Assembly: GCF_900156105.1 (NCBI RefSeq)
Contig: NZ_FTMS01000009.1
Coordinates: 1 to 64,000, forward strand
Reading direction: 5' to 3'
DNA length: 64,000 nucleotides
DNA from: Alkalispirochaeta americana
GTDB lineage: Bacteria > Spirochaetota > Spirochaetia > DSM-27196 > Alkalispirochaetaceae
The notes under the pieces were generated by a model. The model saw nothing but the letters and a program-made list of their open reading frames with translations, searched no databases and was not told the DNA's origin. Shown piece by piece: positions 11,418-19,857 of the stretch. Both the position numbers and the translations under genes were made by a program. Each line of letters opens with the position of its first letter. Position 1 is the first letter of the stretch.

Positions 11418-13328
11418 CTACCGGGGGCCTGGATCTCCGGTCTCGTTTACCTCAAACTGGGTTACAAGGGAAGCCAGGCCATCGATAAGATCCTTGTTCT
11501 CAGCCATTTCCGAGGTCACATCGGTGATGGCAGTGTTGATTTCTCCCAAGCCGGCCCTCATTTCCGTCATGCTCTCCTTCACCTGACCGCTGATTTCTCT
11601 CAGGCGGGTAATTTCTTCAAGGACCGTTGCACGACCTGTTCCGATCTCTCCAGCACCAGAGGTTACCTCGGTCATGAGCCCCTTCATTTTTTCAAGGGCC
11701 GTGAGAATCTCGCGGCCTCCGGTATTCTGTTCCTCCAGAGCATGTCGAATTTCCTCCCCCAGGTAGCTCACGGTCATGATCATTTCGAGGACCTGGGCAA
11801 AGGTAGTTTCCGCCTCTCCGGACGTCCCTGCTACACCATCAATAAGGCCCTTTATGCTTTTCAGAGAGGCCCCGGTTGCCTTGGACTGCTGGGTTGTTTT
11901 TTCTGCCAGAGAGCGAATTTCATTTGCCACGACGGCAAAACCCTGCCCGTACTGTCCCGCGTGGGCCGCCTCGATAGCTGCATTCATGGCCAGCAGGTTG
12001 GTTTGCGCTGCAACAGACGAAATTACCTTGTTTGCTTCCAATAGACTTTCCGACTCCAGGGCGACTTTCTGAAGATGGCGATTGACGGCACCGACCTGCT
12101 CTTTGCCGCCCTCAGCTGCCTTAACCAACTCTTTTATTCTTTCGTCCGACTGCCCAACGGTATTACCGATGGAAACAATATTGGATATCATCTCTTCAAT
12201 CGAGGCCGATGATTCCGAAACAGCTCCAGCCTGTTGGGTAATAATCCTTTCAAGCTCGTTAATGTTCCTGTCAATCTGCTCCACGGCCGAGCTTGACTCG
12301 GAAACGCTTGTGCCCTGGCGGTCAATCAACCCCGCGATACTTTCAATGTTCGCCGATATTTCGTTAACAGCGGCCGCCGTCTCTTCCATATTCGACGAAA
12401 GGCTCGCCCCCTGCTCATTCAGTCGGTAGGCTGACTTCCGTATCTGAAGGATCATCTTTTCCAGGGAAGAGGTGAAGAGATTGAAACTTTCGGCCAGCAG
12501 GCCAATCTCGTCGGTGGTGTCCACGGGAATTCGCTTGGTAAGATCACCCTTCCCGCGAGCGGCTTCTTCCAGAGACGCAACGGTGCGGCAAATTGGCTTG
12601 ACGACTCTGGAGGATATAAAGAGCAGAAGCCCCCCCATAAGAGCCAGTCCGGCAATGGCAATAATCGACTGAATCAGAAGAAGCGTGGCGAACCTCTGCT
12701 GCATCTCACGAGCCCGTTCCTCCACCAAGGCATCGATATCATCTGTATAGGCTCCAGTACCGATCGCCAGATCGAAGGGTTCAAAATATATGCTGTAGGA
12801 TCGTTTTGGTTCGGGCTCGGTCTCTCCCATCTTGGGGAAGTAGTAGTTTACAAAATCGCCACCGGCCATGGCCGCTGCAAGAATGTCCTGAATCAGGTAA
12901 TTCCCCAGAGCATCCTGGAGATTGATTCTGCTCTTGCCCTCCACATCCTCCCGTCCGTAAAGCACCACATTAACGCCTTCGCCGGTATCAGCCCAGAAAT
13001 AACCGTCGGCCGTATCCTCAGGGTGGAGAGCGTAGCGGATCTCCCTGAGCAAGGAGACGCCCGTTTCATAAGCAGCCTCTCTGGAAAGAATCCCCTCCCG
13101 GGCAAGGCGATCAAGTTCCTCCAGCATGGTGTAGGCTGTTTCTACCTGAAACCGGATAAGTCTATCAAAGGAGGTTCGAAGTTCCTGATCGAGATCGTCC
13201 AGAGCAGCGCGGTTGCTGTCGGAAATTATAACAAGCGAAGCAAGAGTAATCGCCAGAATAGTGACAAATCCCACCCCGAGAATCCCAACCATCAGAGTTC
13301 TCTTCAAACTCTTCCGTTTTGCTTCCAT
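11418..13328 (-). CDS. methyl-accepting chemotaxis protein with sCache domain
   Basis: Chemoreceptor of 636 aa. A membrane segment (TLMVGILGVGFVTILAITLA) near the start is followed by a periplasmic single-Cache domain (DGYFWADTGEGVNVVLYGREDVEGKSR ... SYSIYFEPFDLAIGTGAYTDD). A second membrane segment (LLIQSIIAIAGLALMGGLLLF), a HAMP domain and a long coiled signalling domain follow. The CheA/CheW-binding hairpin reads [35 protein letters not shown]. sCache_2 domains often bind small organic acids. The ATG at 13328 has AGGAG 6 nt upstream; the open frame upstream of it has no features of a real N-terminus. Confidence 0.93.
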   Translation of the reverse strand: MEAKRKSLKRTLMVGILGVGFVTILAITLASLVIISDSNRAALDDLDQELRTSFDRLIRFQVETAYTMLEELDRLAREGILSREAAYETGVSLLREIRYALHPEDTADGYFWADTGEGVNVVLYGREDVEGKSRINLQDALGNYLIQDILAAAMAGGDFVNYYFPKMGETEPEPKRSYSIYFEPFDLAIGTGAYTDDIDALVEERAREMQQRFATLLLIQSIIAIAGLALMGGLLLFISSRVVKPICRTVASLEEAARGKGDLTKRIPVDTTDEIGLLAESFNLFTSSLEKMILQIRKSAYRLNEQGASLSSNMEETAAAVNEISANIESIAGLIDRQGTSVSESSSAVEQIDRNINELERIITQQAGAVSESSASIEEMISNIVSIGNTVGQSDERIKELVKAAEGGKEQVGAVNRHLQKVALESESLLEANKVISSVAAQTNLLAMNAAIEAAHAGQYGQGFAVVANEIRSLAEKTTQQSKATGASLKSIKGLIDGVAGTSGEAETTFAQVLEMIMTVSYLGEEIRHALEEQNTGGREILTALEKMKGLMTEVTSGAGEIGTGRATVLEEITRLREISGQVKESMTEMRAGLGEINTAITDVTSEMAENKDLIDGLASLVTQFEVNETGDPGPR

Positions 13329-13443
13329 GGATGACTCCTGAACAGCCACTCTGTATCTACGTCTACAAAGTATAGAACCGGCAAAGACGGATTGCAAATG
13401 TACAACTGCTCCCGAAATGGCTGGCCCTGGTTCATGGAACGCT

Positions 13444-14802
13444 TTAGCCAAGACTGAAGGTTCGAAACGTCCTTCGGGAGTTAATTTTCCCGGCGAGTCC
13501 GGGGTTCTTGCGACACAGCTTCTGGAGCACCTCCACGCAGGCCTGTAAATCGGCATCGACTGGCTCAAGATCAGCCTCAAGACCACCGATTACCTCGTTC
13601 AGGTCACGGATCTCCTGATCCTTCTCGTCCAGACTCTCGCTCAGTTTGCGATAATCCCGAACCAGTGTCAGAAAGTCTCGGGTATACAGACCGATGGCAT
13701 AGGCGAAAGAATCACGGTCATTCCGACAGAGTTGACCGGGGTCAACCTCAAAGAGACTCTCGATCCCCTTATAGGAGTCAAGGATTGCCTTGCGATAATC
13801 GTTCAGATAGTCTGTGTAGGTTCGCCCGATCAGACTGGTTGATATCATGGAAAACAGGGTGACACTCACGATGATCCCCGTGACCCAGAGAACGTTATGC
13901 CGACGTTGCGCATGAAACTGGAGGCCTTTCTTCATGAGGATCTCCCAGTCTCCGGCACTCACCACGTAGCTGTTGAGCCCGTTGTACCGCCGCGAAAGCG
14001 AGGTTTCGGCTTCGCTCTCTGACAGGTCCCGGTAATTCTGGCCATAGTTCCGGCGATCACCCCGTTGCAGATAGATCCAGTCTTCTTCCCTGCTGTGTTC
14101 CCCGAGAATCCTGAGGACGTCGCTACTATCAGCGGGATCACGGGCTTCGAGATCCGCCTGCAATCTCTCGCGGGCTCTTTCGCTACTGTCTTGGATGTAC
14201 CCCAGGGGTCCCCAGACTGTCGTGGTGGCGCTGAGCAGAATCAGAATGGCCAGAACGAAAAACCCAAGCCATCCCACGGTAGCCTCGCAAGAAGAAGAAT
14301 CCGATTTGAGCGCAATAAAGCGGAGCATTTTGATGTTACGCAAGAGCCTGAAGAGACGGGTGAGACGCAATGCTCTCAGCAGCTTGGTGGAACGGATGAT
14401 CCCCACCGAGAGCCCCCCGGCAGCCAAAAAATCGGCAACAACAAAGTCAGCCGAACCTGTCAGGGACGCCAGTAGCGATACAACGAGAAAAATGAGAGCC
14501 AGCATACCTGGCAGAGCCGCCAGACTGTCGGTGACAGCGGTAAAGAGTGTGAGCCGCCCCTCCTTCTTCCATGAAATAAAGCGAACGAGCAGAACCAGAA
14601 AAACAAGATCAAAAAAAAGGTTCAAGGTCCCAAAAACAAGCATTGGTTGTGCAGTGAGAGCCAGCTCGTAGGGGATCATCACCAGAATGGAGCAGAGAAT
14701 GAAGGCAAACTCCAGCAGGGAGATGTTGTGTTGTGCTTGCTGATGGATTTCCAGATCTTCGAAGTTTTTCCTGATCTCCTCGTAACGAGCCTCAAGATTC
14801 AT
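13444..14802 (-). CDS. voltage-sensor-like six-TM membrane protein
   Basis: Membrane protein of 452 aa with the plan of a voltage-gated channel subunit. TM segments lie at about 28-48, 57-77, 88-112 (with the S3-like DSLAALPG), 126-160, 176-198 and 303-326. The fourth is a textbook S4: positive residues every third position (R137, K140, R143, R146, R149, R152, R155, K158). Between TM5 and TM6 there is a ~100-residue polar loop instead of a normal pore helix and filter; no TVGYG or TLESW signature is seen. The C-terminal ~120 residues are predicted cytoplasmic and partly coiled coil. The next gene overlaps by 4 bp, indicating an operon. Whether it conducts ions is unknown. Confidence 0.68.
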   Translation of the reverse strand: MNLEARYEEIRKNFEDLEIHQQAQHNISLLEFAFILCSILVMIPYELALTAQPMLVFGTLNLFFDLVFLVLLVRFISWKKEGRLTLFTAVTDSLAALPGMLALIFLVVSLLASLTGSADFVVADFLAAGGLSVGIIRSTKLLRALRLTRLFRLLRNIKMLRFIALKSDSSSCEATVGWLGFFVLAILILLSATTTVWGPLGYIQDSSERARERLQADLEARDPADSSDVLRILGEHSREEDWIYLQRGDRRNYGQNYRDLSESEAETSLSRRYNGLNSYVVSAGDWEILMKKGLQFHAQRRHNVLWVTGIIVSVTLFSMISTSLIGRTYTDYLNDYRKAILDSYKGIESLFEVDPGQLCRNDRDSFAYAIGLYTRDFLTLVRDYRKLSESLDEKDQEIRDLNEVIGGLEADLEPVDADLQACVEVLQKLCRKNPGLAGKINSRRTFRTFSLG

Positions 14803-15929
14803 GCCGTTTCCTCTCGGTGTTTGCGGATTATCTGTTGCACAAGCGCCTGATGTTCCATCAGGAAATCGATAACCTTCCGGTAGTATCGGTCAGGCTGGAG
14901 TTCCCGTTCCATCCCCTGCTTTATTTTACGGCTTCTCAGGGGCGATTCATTGTGTATCAGGGGGAACTCGGAACGAACCGATTCAAGGATTGCCCGTATC
15001 AGGTTTGGAAGCAACGCGGTCCGGGCGGCCTCCCCCCGGGAGGGCCTCATTTGTATCTGCAGAGCCAGATCTGTAGTCTGATCGTCCAGGGTCCACCCCG
15101 GGTCTGTGGTGATTCTTCTGAAACACCCCTGCACCGCAGAGTCGCAAGCTGTCAAAAGTTCGTGCTTTTCGTTTACGTAACCCACATTCGTCTTGCGACC
15201 GACCATCACGATTGCATGGTTATGGATCATGCTTATATAAAACAGTTTTTTCAGATATTCAAAACTGCTCCGAATATTGTCGGTGGTCTTGAGTTTCAAC
15301 CCTAACCGATCAAATTCTTCCCGGATGCTCACGCCGGGATCTGCCGTGGCCGCACCGATCCTGCTCATGAGTCCCAGCAGAACCTCGGTCACCATGGCCT
15401 GATTGAAAAAGCGGAACTCCTGGAGAACGTCGTCGGGGTTCCGTTCGAAACTCAACGTGAAATATTTCAGGGCGAAGGGATAATGCTGACTAAAATTGTC
15501 GGCGTGGATTCCCATGGTGCAGTAGTCCATGGTGAGCATGATTCCGTAGAAATTGGAGCGGGTCATGTTCTTGACCAGAAATCCGGGACGGATCTGGCTG
15601 ATTCTGGTCTTGGGATTCAGCTGAAGGTAGCTCCTCTTGGAAAGCTCGATAAAATCCTGCCATCCCACATCAAAAAAGCTGTTGTCAGTGATCCAGTTCT
15701 CCCGAATCGCCCGATGCAACAGAGGGAAAAGTGGTTTTAACTCCTGCAGAGAGCGTACACTCCGCACTTTGGCAGCGATATCGGGCTTGACCTGCTGGAA
15801 AAGGTCTCCCAGTTGTTTGCACACGAACTTTCTCAGAATGAGGGCCATGACTTCCTGTTCCTTCCGGTTCAAGGGAACATTTTCCCGCTGGACAACATCG
15901 TCCAGGATAACTGAAGGACGCTCACTCAT
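14799..15929 (-). CDS. hypothetical soluble protein coupled to the voltage-sensor-like gene
   Basis: Protein of 376 aa with no signal peptide or membrane segment, probably mostly helical and cytoplasmic. I recognise no domain. Notable stretches are LNRKEQEVMALILRKFVCKQLGDLFQQV near the start and KLFYISMIHNHAIVMVGRKTNVGYVNEKHELLTACDSAVQGC in the middle. Its stop overlaps the start of the voltage-sensor-like gene by 4 bp (ATGA type), and it is transcribed first. That coupling suggests the two proteins act together. The function is unknown. Confidence 0.6.
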   Translation of the reverse strand: MSERPSVILDDVVQRENVPLNRKEQEVMALILRKFVCKQLGDLFQQVKPDIAAKVRSVRSLQELKPLFPLLHRAIRENWITDNSFFDVGWQDFIELSKRSYLQLNPKTRISQIRPGFLVKNMTRSNFYGIMLTMDYCTMGIHADNFSQHYPFALKYFTLSFERNPDDVLQEFRFFNQAMVTEVLLGLMSRIGAATADPGVSIREEFDRLGLKLKTTDNIRSSFEYLKKLFYISMIHNHAIVMVGRKTNVGYVNEKHELLTACDSAVQGCFRRITTDPGWTLDDQTTDLALQIQMRPSRGEAARTALLPNLIRAILESVRSEFPLIHNESPLRSRKIKQGMERELQPDRYYRKVIDFLMEHQALVQQIIRKHREETA

Positions 15930-17401: not shown

Positions 17402-19321
17402 GTGACACGGGATCTGCAGAAAGAACTTCGACGAAAATTGAAACACGCCTTTGGCTTCTCAACCTTCAAGGCAAATCAGGAAGAGATCGTTCAGGCCACT
17501 TTGAACGGACGCGATGTATTTGCCGCCCTGCCTACGGGGGGCGGCAAATCTCTGTGCTATCAACTGCCCGCCCTGTTCCGGGAAGGCATCACCGTGGTAG
17601 TGAGCCCCCTTATCGCTCTTATGAAGGATCAGGTTGACGGAGCCCGCGAGAATGGCCTGGCTGCGGCCTATCTCAATAGTAGCCAAAGTTCGGATGCGGC
17701 CAGAACCGTTTGGCGTGATCTTGCCGCTGGACGGGTAAAGCTCCTCTATGTCTCACCGGAACGCCTGGCCGGAGCGGAGTTCCGCGATGCCCTGAAGCAA
17801 TTCGGAGTCAGTGCTTTTGCTGTTGATGAAGCTCATTGTGTCTCGGAGTGGGGTCATGAGTTCCGTCCGGACTACCGAACCCTGCGATGCCTCCGCACGG
17901 AGTTTAACACCGTGCCAATTTCGGCCTTCACCGCTACCGCTACCCAGACAGTACAGGACGATATTGTCACGCAGCTGGAGCTACGGGACCCCCTGATCGT
18001 TCGCGCTGGTTTCAACCGCCCGGAACTCAGCTACCGCGTGGCGCGCAAACACTCAGTGGAGCAGCAGATTCTTGATTTCCTGCAAGACCACCCGGGCGAG
18101 CCGGGGATCATCTACCGTTCCACCCGAAAATCCACCGAGCTGACCGCCGAAAAGCTCCGGGCTGCCGGCATTGATGCCAGGCCGTATCACGCCGGGCTTC
18201 CTGACACGGAACGGGGCCGAGTGCAAGAAGACTTTGTTCGGGATTCCCTGCAGGTTGTGGTAGCTACCATTGCCTTTGGCATGGGCATCGACAAATCCAA
18301 CGTCCGATGGGTTCTCCACGGCGATCTTCCGCGCAGCCTGGAAGGATACTACCAGGAGACCGGCCGGGCGGGACGGGATGGCGAAAAGGCTGATACCTTG
18401 CTGCTCTGGGGCTCCCAGGACATGGCAATCATCCGGCGACATATTGCACATATGCAGGTTGATGAGGAACGTCGAGCGGCAGAACAGCGTCTTTACGAGG
18501 TTCTCCGGTACGTCGAGACCTCCCTCTGTCGCCGAACCAGTCTGCTGTCCCACTTTGACGAGAGTTTTCCCGGCAACTGTGGGGCCTGCGATATCTGCCT
18601 TGGTGAGGTTGAGTTTTCCGACTATACCGTGCCAGCACAGAAAATTCTTTCTGCAGCGGTGCGAACCGGCGAAGTCTTTGGAGCCCATCACCTGATCGAT
18701 ATTGTCACAGGCACCACCACAGAGAGGGTTCTGGAGCGGAGACACCAGGAACTACCCACCTTTGGAGTTGGAAGCGATCATGACCGGCCCTGGTGGCTTG
18801 GCCTCATCCGGGATCTGGAGGCTGCTTATTTTGTCGCTCGCCATGAGGGTGAAGGCGGGCGTCCTGGGGGCTTTTTCTTGACGGGCCGGGGGCGTCGCCT
18901 TCTTCAGGGCAGGGAACACTTTTCCTCCGCAAGAGACTTTGCACCAACCAGTTCGCCACACCCAGGAATGACCATCGGTTCGACGAGGACACTCTCCGGC
19001 GTCTCCCGGAAGAAGTCCGCCAGTAATACCCCGCAACCCCTGCGCCCTCACCAGGAAGAGCTCTTTGTCTGTCTCAAGAAATTCCGCAAAAAACTTGCCG
19101 CCGAGCGAGGAGTTCCTCCCTACATCGTGTTTAGCGATAAAACGCTCCGGGTCATGGCAATGAACAGACCCACCGACGCACAGGCTCTGCTGCGCTGCCA
19201 CGGAGTTGGTGATCGCAAGCTTGAAGCCTACGGAGAGCAGTTCCTTGAAATCATCCGGGGGTTTCTTTCCCCACGGGACGTCTCATCGGAGACCTCGCCG
19301 GAGAATGGAGAAAAATCCTAA
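17402..19321 (+). CDS. recQ: ATP-dependent DNA helicase RecQ
   Basis: RecQ helicase of about 639 aa. The motifs appear in order: Walker A LPTGGGKSLCYQLPA, DEAH box VDEAHCVSEWGHEFRPDY, TATAT motif III, and ETGRAGRDG motif VI. The Zn-binding Cys cluster follows (SLCRRTSLL...NCGACDIC), then the RQC winged helix and a C-terminal HRDC domain (PHQEELFVCLKKFRKKLAAERGVPPYIVFSD). It unwinds DNA in recombination and stalled-fork repair. The start is uncertain: a GTG at 17402 just before RDLQKELRRKLKHAFGF, or a TTG at 17366. Its TAA overlaps the stop codon of the convergent macro-domain gene. Confidence 0.95.
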   Translation: MTRDLQKELRRKLKHAFGFSTFKANQEEIVQATLNGRDVFAALPTGGGKSLCYQLPALFREGITVVVSPLIALMKDQVDGARENGLAAAYLNSSQSSDAARTVWRDLAAGRVKLLYVSPERLAGAEFRDALKQFGVSAFAVDEAHCVSEWGHEFRPDYRTLRCLRTEFNTVPISAFTATATQTVQDDIVTQLELRDPLIVRAGFNRPELSYRVARKHSVEQQILDFLQDHPGEPGIIYRSTRKSTELTAEKLRAAGIDARPYHAGLPDTERGRVQEDFVRDSLQVVVATIAFGMGIDKSNVRWVLHGDLPRSLEGYYQETGRAGRDGEKADTLLLWGSQDMAIIRRHIAHMQVDEERRAAEQRLYEVLRYVETSLCRRTSLLSHFDESFPGNCGACDICLGEVEFSDYTVPAQKILSAAVRTGEVFGAHHLIDIVTGTTTERVLERRHQELPTFGVGSDHDRPWWLGLIRDLEAAYFVARHEGEGGRPGGFFLTGRGRRLLQGREHFSSARDFAPTSSPHPGMTIGSTRTLSGVSRKKSASNTPQPLRPHQEELFVCLKKFRKKLAAERGVPPYIVFSDKTLRVMAMNRPTDAQALLRCHGVGDRKLEAYGEQFLEIIRGFLSPRDVSSETSPENGEKS

Positions 19322-19857
19322 GATCGGACTGTCTTATCGGGCCGATTTTCCCAAGTTTCCTGTGCCATCCGGTACGTATCCAGAACGGTCTGGCTGAAGC
19401 AAACCATTCGCACCAGCCTGGGTTGCTGGTGCGTTGCAAGGAAGGTCTCGATACCATCTACCGCCACAGCCGCTGCCTGATCCAGAGGATACCCGTAGGC
19501 ACCGGTGCTGATAGAGGGGAACGCCATGGTCTCGATCTTCATGGAGCAGGCCAGCTCCAGCGACCGCTGGTAGCAGGAGGCCAGAAGATCAGCCTCGTTC
19601 AGATGGCCTCCGCGCCATATGGGACCTACCGTATGAATCACCCAGGATGCGGACAATTGATATCCCGGGGTGACTTTGGCATCACCCGTGGCACAGCCCT
19701 GAAGGGCCCGGCAGGCCTCGAGCAATTCCGGTCCTGCTGCCCGATGAATGGCACCATCCACCCCACCCCCGCCGAGGAGTGTTTCATTCGCTGCGTTTAC
19801 CAGGGCGTCTACCTTTTGAATAGTGATGTCACCCAGGATAATTTGAAATCGCTTCAC
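19318..19857 (-). CDS. macro-domain ADP-ribose / O-acetyl-ADP-ribose hydrolase
   Basis: Macro-domain protein of 179 aa, close in plan to E. coli YmdB. It has the ADP-ribose-binding NAANETLLGGGGVDGAIHRAAG near the N-terminus, the GDAKVTPGYQL segment, VIHTVGPIW, and the AFPSISTGAYGYPLDQAA phosphate loop. Members remove the acetyl group from O-acetyl-ADP-ribose or reverse mono-ADP-ribosylation. It ends on recQ's stop codon, convergent, sharing 4 bp. The ATG follows no strong ribosome site but begins exactly at the domain start. Confidence 0.92.
   Translation of the reverse strand: MKRFQIILGDITIQKVDALVNAANETLLGGGGVDGAIHRAAGPELLEACRALQGCATGDAKVTPGYQLSASWVIHTVGPIWRGGHLNEADLLASCYQRSLELACSMKIETMAFPSISTGAYGYPLDQAAAVAVDGIETFLATHQQPRLVRMVCFSQTVLDTYRMAQETWENRPDKTVRS

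Follow-up and report, generated by a model that had tools for sequence, protein, structure and literature searches.

In the 64,000-nucleotide stretch of Alkalispirochaeta americana DNA analyzed here (the window), one of two overlapping genes on the reverse strand encodes P0001, which is probably a pore-less receptor: a Kv-type voltage-sensor domain (VSD) followed by a transducer with the order TM5, periplasmic module, TM6 and HAMP-like tail, which would signal to the soluble protein encoded directly upstream, P0002. Comparative anatomy (the plan and gene contexts of relatives across the spirochaetes) supports this reading of P0001 as a voltage-sensor receptor that signals to a soluble partner. 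The features to which we refer are the following:

13444..14802, minus strand: P0001, 452 aa, voltage-sensor receptor (putative)
14799..15929, minus strand: P0002, 376 aa, soluble putative partner without detectable relatives
14799..14802, minus strand: overlap of the two genes (ATGA, 4 bases), translational coupling likely
14314..14715, minus strand: S1-S4 VSD of P0001, residues ~30-163 (Pfam Ion_trans 29-167), with S2 Phe68, S3 Asp92 and Pro98
14320..14394, minus strand: S4 charge ladder, residues 137-161, nine R/K at i+3
14194..14292, minus strand: TM5, residues ~171-203, from hydropathy
13897..14193, minus strand: periplasmic module, residues ~204-302, selectivity filter absent
13828..13896, minus strand: TM6, residues ~303-325, from hydropathy
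13657..13827, minus strand: HAMP-like tail, residues ~326-382, diverged in P0001, D331 and Y373 retained
13507..13656, minus strand: C-terminal end of P0001, residues ~383-432, predicted from its sequence pattern to be a coiled coil (single-sequence model of low confidence)
11418..13328, minus strand: flanking gene for an sCache_2-HAMP-MCPsignal chemoreceptor, ATG at ~13328, probably a separate transcription unit
13369..13398, minus strand: promoter-like site of the chemoreceptor gene (TTGCAA-17-TATACT), in a stretch partly conserved in the closest congener (genome G001)

The first-pass annotation had described two open reading frames here, that of P0001 being overlapped by a 376-aa gene; its coordinates are exact, and the overlap is 4 bases. 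Both look like genuine genes; their codon bias is in-frame, their GC3 is the same as that of the neighbor genes, and Shine-Dalgarno-like sequences are present for both. NCBIfam has no family for either protein, and AlphaFold2 single-sequence models of P0001 and P0002, each alone, have a mean pLDDT of 40 (low confidence).

Pfam Ion_trans covers residues 29-167 of P0001 alone, at 22.9 bits slightly under the cut-off of 25, and the hydrophobic segments fit S1-S3, TM5 (169-203) and TM6 (302-328) by hydropathy. The basic residues of S4 are at positions 137, 140, 143, 146, 149, 152, 155, 158 and 161; the strict three-residue spacing noted at first pass is correct, and the charges number nine, not eight. 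P0001 retains the family-invariant residues F68, D92, P98, R146, R149, R152, R155, K158, D331 and Y373, the first three of which are invariant columns in alignment A4 (P0001 numbering); the S2 acid is lost, its site being occupied by V. P0001 has the S1-S4 voltage sensor of the voltage-gated ion channel superfamily; the pore helix and selectivity filter that also characterize that superfamily are not found in it.

With P0001 alone as the query, the genomes of the order yielded six distant relatives (E-values of 1e-5 to 1e-3), which have the same plan; several of them are accompanied by a conserved gene upstream. Profile A1, built from five sequences, was searched against 393 genomes of the phylum; the family profile has matches in 122 of these, about 60 of them full length, and sixty gene contexts were retrieved and scored. 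Three ordinary K+ channels that the profiles also caught (L107, L109 and L113) were set aside as an outgroup. The relatives share a common plan, that is, a VSD, TM5, a periplasmic module of ~90 aa, TM6 and a HAMP-like tail, and most have the S2 Phe-x-x-Glu/Asp, the S3 Asp and an S4 with 7-10 charges. When profile A4 (18 sequences) was compared with the PDB, the matches were confined to the VSD part of Kv3.1, Kv1.2, Cav, Nav and HCN channels. Residues 32-323 of P0001 align with the type I profile at 43 bits, versus 4-5 bits for types II/III, and grouping by VSD sequence places P0001 with type I (90/93) on a very long branch. By these comparisons P0001 belongs, as a strongly diverged member, to an unnamed family with representatives throughout the phylum of the spirochaetes; because the branch is so long, we are unsure of its exact place beside type I. 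The host genome also encodes a shortened type I paralogue (L059, 7273-8178; C1:250269-251132 region) with several S4 charges missing and no tail or partner, and the congener likewise holds a shortened type I paralogue.

The first-pass annotation had read the S5-S6 region as a polar linker of ~100 residues without a filter and had suspected that the protein is not an ion channel, a view against which a filter in homologues would count. Residues 204-302 of P0001 are indeed polar, and the K+ filter motif [TSV]-[VIAT]-G-[YFW]-G is found in 0 of the 52 sequences tested (P0001 and 51 aligned relatives); in one subgroup the linker is almost gone, with ~15 residues separating TM5 and TM6 in L090 (genome G111), so a pore loop cannot fit there. 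The TM6/tail profile of the relatives matches the HAMP regions of histidine kinases, an MCP and a SpoIIE-type protein (e.g., residues 188-247 in L111, where Pfam places HAMP at 186-236); the type I tail profile also matches bona fide HAMPs, although Pfam HAMP itself stays below its cut-off in type I proteins. Given these matches and the absence of a filter, the ‘S5-linker-S6’ is better read as a TM5-periplasmic-TM6-HAMP-like receptor module. A PDB profile search with the periplasmic module gave no convincing match (best E-value, 0.043).

In 35 of the 44 type I contexts, a conserved gene for a ~308-aa partner lies at position -1 on the same strand, and its distance from the VSD gene ranges from -52 to +47 bases (one mis-set start excepted). 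The four type I proteins that have no tail (L059, L060, L068 and L114) all lack the partner, which is present with 33 of the 39 tailed type I proteins (Fisher p 0.0017 for tail versus partner, a value behind which there are about three events because the counts are not phylogenetically independent). This co-loss, together with the retention of both tail and partner in L090, points to coupling of the tail to the partner. Members of a second subfamily (L069 and L099-L102) have a coiled-coil tail and a different conserved upstream partner family without a Pfam match. In one assembly, a single 576-aa chain (L106; G119:C715, 4585-6315) has the order VSD-TM-periplasmic-TM-HAMP-like-HD-GYP (Ion_trans 1e-17, HAMP weak, HD_5 7e-25); this is the single example of a fusion to an HD-GYP (c-di-GMP phosphodiesterase-type) domain, and its motifs HDLGK and HHEKIDGSGYP look intact.

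Other neighbors are less regular. Thirteen of the 44 type I contexts contain a convergent cluster of neighbors that we read as ComFB, confirmed by Pfam for L003 alone; ComFB binds c-di-AMP and c-di-GMP (PMC12313861). These neighbors are convergent and recur in some of the type I contexts, so they hint only weakly at a second-messenger link. The VSD proteins L077, L082 and L098 are without the usual partner and are flanked by an upstream gene (with a caspase domain in L098) and, downstream, by a polysaccharide-deacetylase-domain gene (Pfam in L077 and L082).

An alternative that we consider unlikely, if still credible, is that these proteins are receptors for periplasmic ligands, in which the S1-S4 bundle is an inherited anchor or oligomerization module and signaling to the partner is real, not voltage-driven. 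TM5-periplasmic-TM6-HAMP is the classic input plan of chemoreceptors and kinases, P0001 itself is missing the S2 acid, and S4 charges or counter-charges are lost with the partner retained in L070, L094 and L110. More generally, the Borrelia-like, L110/L112 and L140-142 lineages have kept the partner or tail after losing S4 charges or S2/S3 acids, which implies that voltage sensing is not under selection in every lineage. (L140, L141, L142 and L150 form a further subfamily with a degenerate S4 and a HAMP-like tail.) However, the S4 ladder, the S2 Phe and the S3 Asp are retained in the great majority of the family despite very large divergence, and L090 has lost the periplasmic module yet retains the VSD, the tail and the partner.

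A second alternative, which we judge rather improbable, is that the overlap is incidental: P0002 would be an orphan gene without any relation to P0001, and P0001 would work by itself or be degenerate. P0002 contains no hydrophobic segment and no membrane segment and belongs to no Pfam family; no relative was found in 46 genomes of the order, 393 genomes of the phylum, a GTDB pattern scan, or viral, phage and plasmid collections, so the 376-aa protein is as unplaceable as it first appeared and no homologue with an unrelated role came to light in these collections. HHalign detected no similarity of P0002 to the ~308-aa type I partner family or to the partner family of the second subfamily, and the canonical ~308-aa partner is missing from both the host genome (G000) and the congener. 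In addition, the congener lacks the pair at the syntenic site, where its chemoreceptor and hydrolase genes are adjacent (370 bases, compared with 2.9 kb with the pair); the pair was therefore either gained in the host genome or lost in the congener. Against an orphan, P0002 and P0001 overlap translationally, both have normal codon bias, and P0002 occupies the upstream, same-strand position in which the conserved type I and type II partners are found. With no homologue and no similarity to either partner family, it is this position that suggests P0002 as the partner, and the two proteins may make contact. The coupling to a soluble protein proposed at first pass is supported for the family (by the upstream partner, the tail-partner co-loss and the HD-GYP fusion) and, for P0002 itself, has its position in its favor; as to whether the two genes always co-occur, most type I genes have an upstream partner gene, and no relative of P0002 was found in the genomes searched.

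It is very improbable that P0001 is a voltage-gated channel with an unconventional path, e.g., proton flow through the VSD as in Hv1, because, although its VSD is homologous to those of channels and isolated VSDs such as Hv1 can conduct protons, there is no filter, the P0001 S4 contains no Trp and so does not match the Trp-containing S4 motif of Hv1, P0001 has two TMs beyond the VSD, unlike the VSD-only Hv1, and the HAMP-like tail, partner gene and HD-GYP fusion indicate signaling.

For the preferred reading, a voltage-sensor receptor with a soluble partner, we infer the voltage response, the direction of signaling and the downstream output from the anatomy described above. When the membrane potential changes, or a periplasmic ligand acts, or both, S4 would shift together with the TM5/TM6 bundle. 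The HAMP-like/coiled-coil tail would then alter its conformation, and the soluble product of the gene immediately upstream (P0002 in the case of P0001) would read this alteration. Elsewhere the reader would be the ~308-aa family (most relatives), the other family (second subfamily) or the fused HD-GYP domain (L106). More tentatively, and short of calling it probable, we propose that membrane-potential receptors occur phylum-wide, in which a Kv-type sensor acts via a HAMP-like transducer on interchangeable cytosolic outputs (two or more partner families, the orphan partner of P0001 and one HD-GYP fusion), making voltage a direct input to bacterial signaling and possibly to motility.

The gene that follows P0001 does encode a chemoreceptor, as first described, with sCache_2, HAMP and MCPsignal domains. 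We considered and rejected an operon that includes it and P0001: the congener keeps the chemoreceptor gene in synteny without the pair, and the promoter-like site lies between the genes. With this site ahead of the chemoreceptor gene, a shared operon is unlikely, and the same two observations leave the connection to motility that had been suggested through this neighbor weak and unsupported. A different lead, and only a lead, to motility comes from two Borrelia-like genomes (L070 and L096), in which the partner-VSD pair adjoins genes for CheA, CheW-CheR, CheX and a response regulator (cheY-type); these che genes are convergent to the pair (opposite strand), and S4 is degenerate there. We take this neighborhood to be the BB0669-BB0676 region of B. 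burgdorferi. Elsewhere in the window (19318-19857, minus strand), a gene that overlaps the end of a RecQ-like gene encodes what reads in sequence as a macro-domain-like protein.

Bacteria may read membrane voltage as a signal. If our reading is correct, the family is a concrete means, accessible to genetic tests, for bacteria to sense their own voltage and to drive second-messenger or other cytosolic outputs. It would also suggest what conserved genes that lack a known function do in Borrelia and other spirochaetes. To our knowledge, voltage sensors coupled to something besides a pore are represented mainly by eukaryotic examples. Non-channel voltage sensors include the voltage-sensing phosphatases (VSPs), SLC9C1 and Hv1 (PMC13095418). 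A search of the open-access literature (subscription journals were outside its scope) found no relevant paper on bacterial voltage-sensor receptors of this sort.

Among known systems, the voltage-gated K+ channels Kv3.1 and Kv1.2 (PF00520) share with P0001 the S1-S4 sensor, the charge ladder and the S2 Phe/S3 Asp; in contrast to them, P0001 has no selectivity filter and has a periplasmic module between TM5 and TM6 and a HAMP-like tail. Chemoreceptors and histidine kinases with a periplasmic Cache-type domain and a HAMP have the same TM-periplasmic domain-TM-HAMP order, and their HAMPs are matched by the TM6-tail profile; however, P0001 has an N-terminal VSD, and a kinase or MCP signaling domain is absent from its chain. 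The HD-GYP c-di-GMP phosphodiesterases provide the type of output domain found in the homologue L106 alone; P0001 has none. Functionally, the closest is the voltage-sensing phosphatase Ci-VSP, an analogy in manner of working, in which a VSD drives a cytosolic effector, not a pore; P0001, which is bacterial, does not belong to the VSPs, having no PTEN-like phosphatase domain detectable by Pfam and adding TM5/TM6, a periplasmic module and a separate partner.
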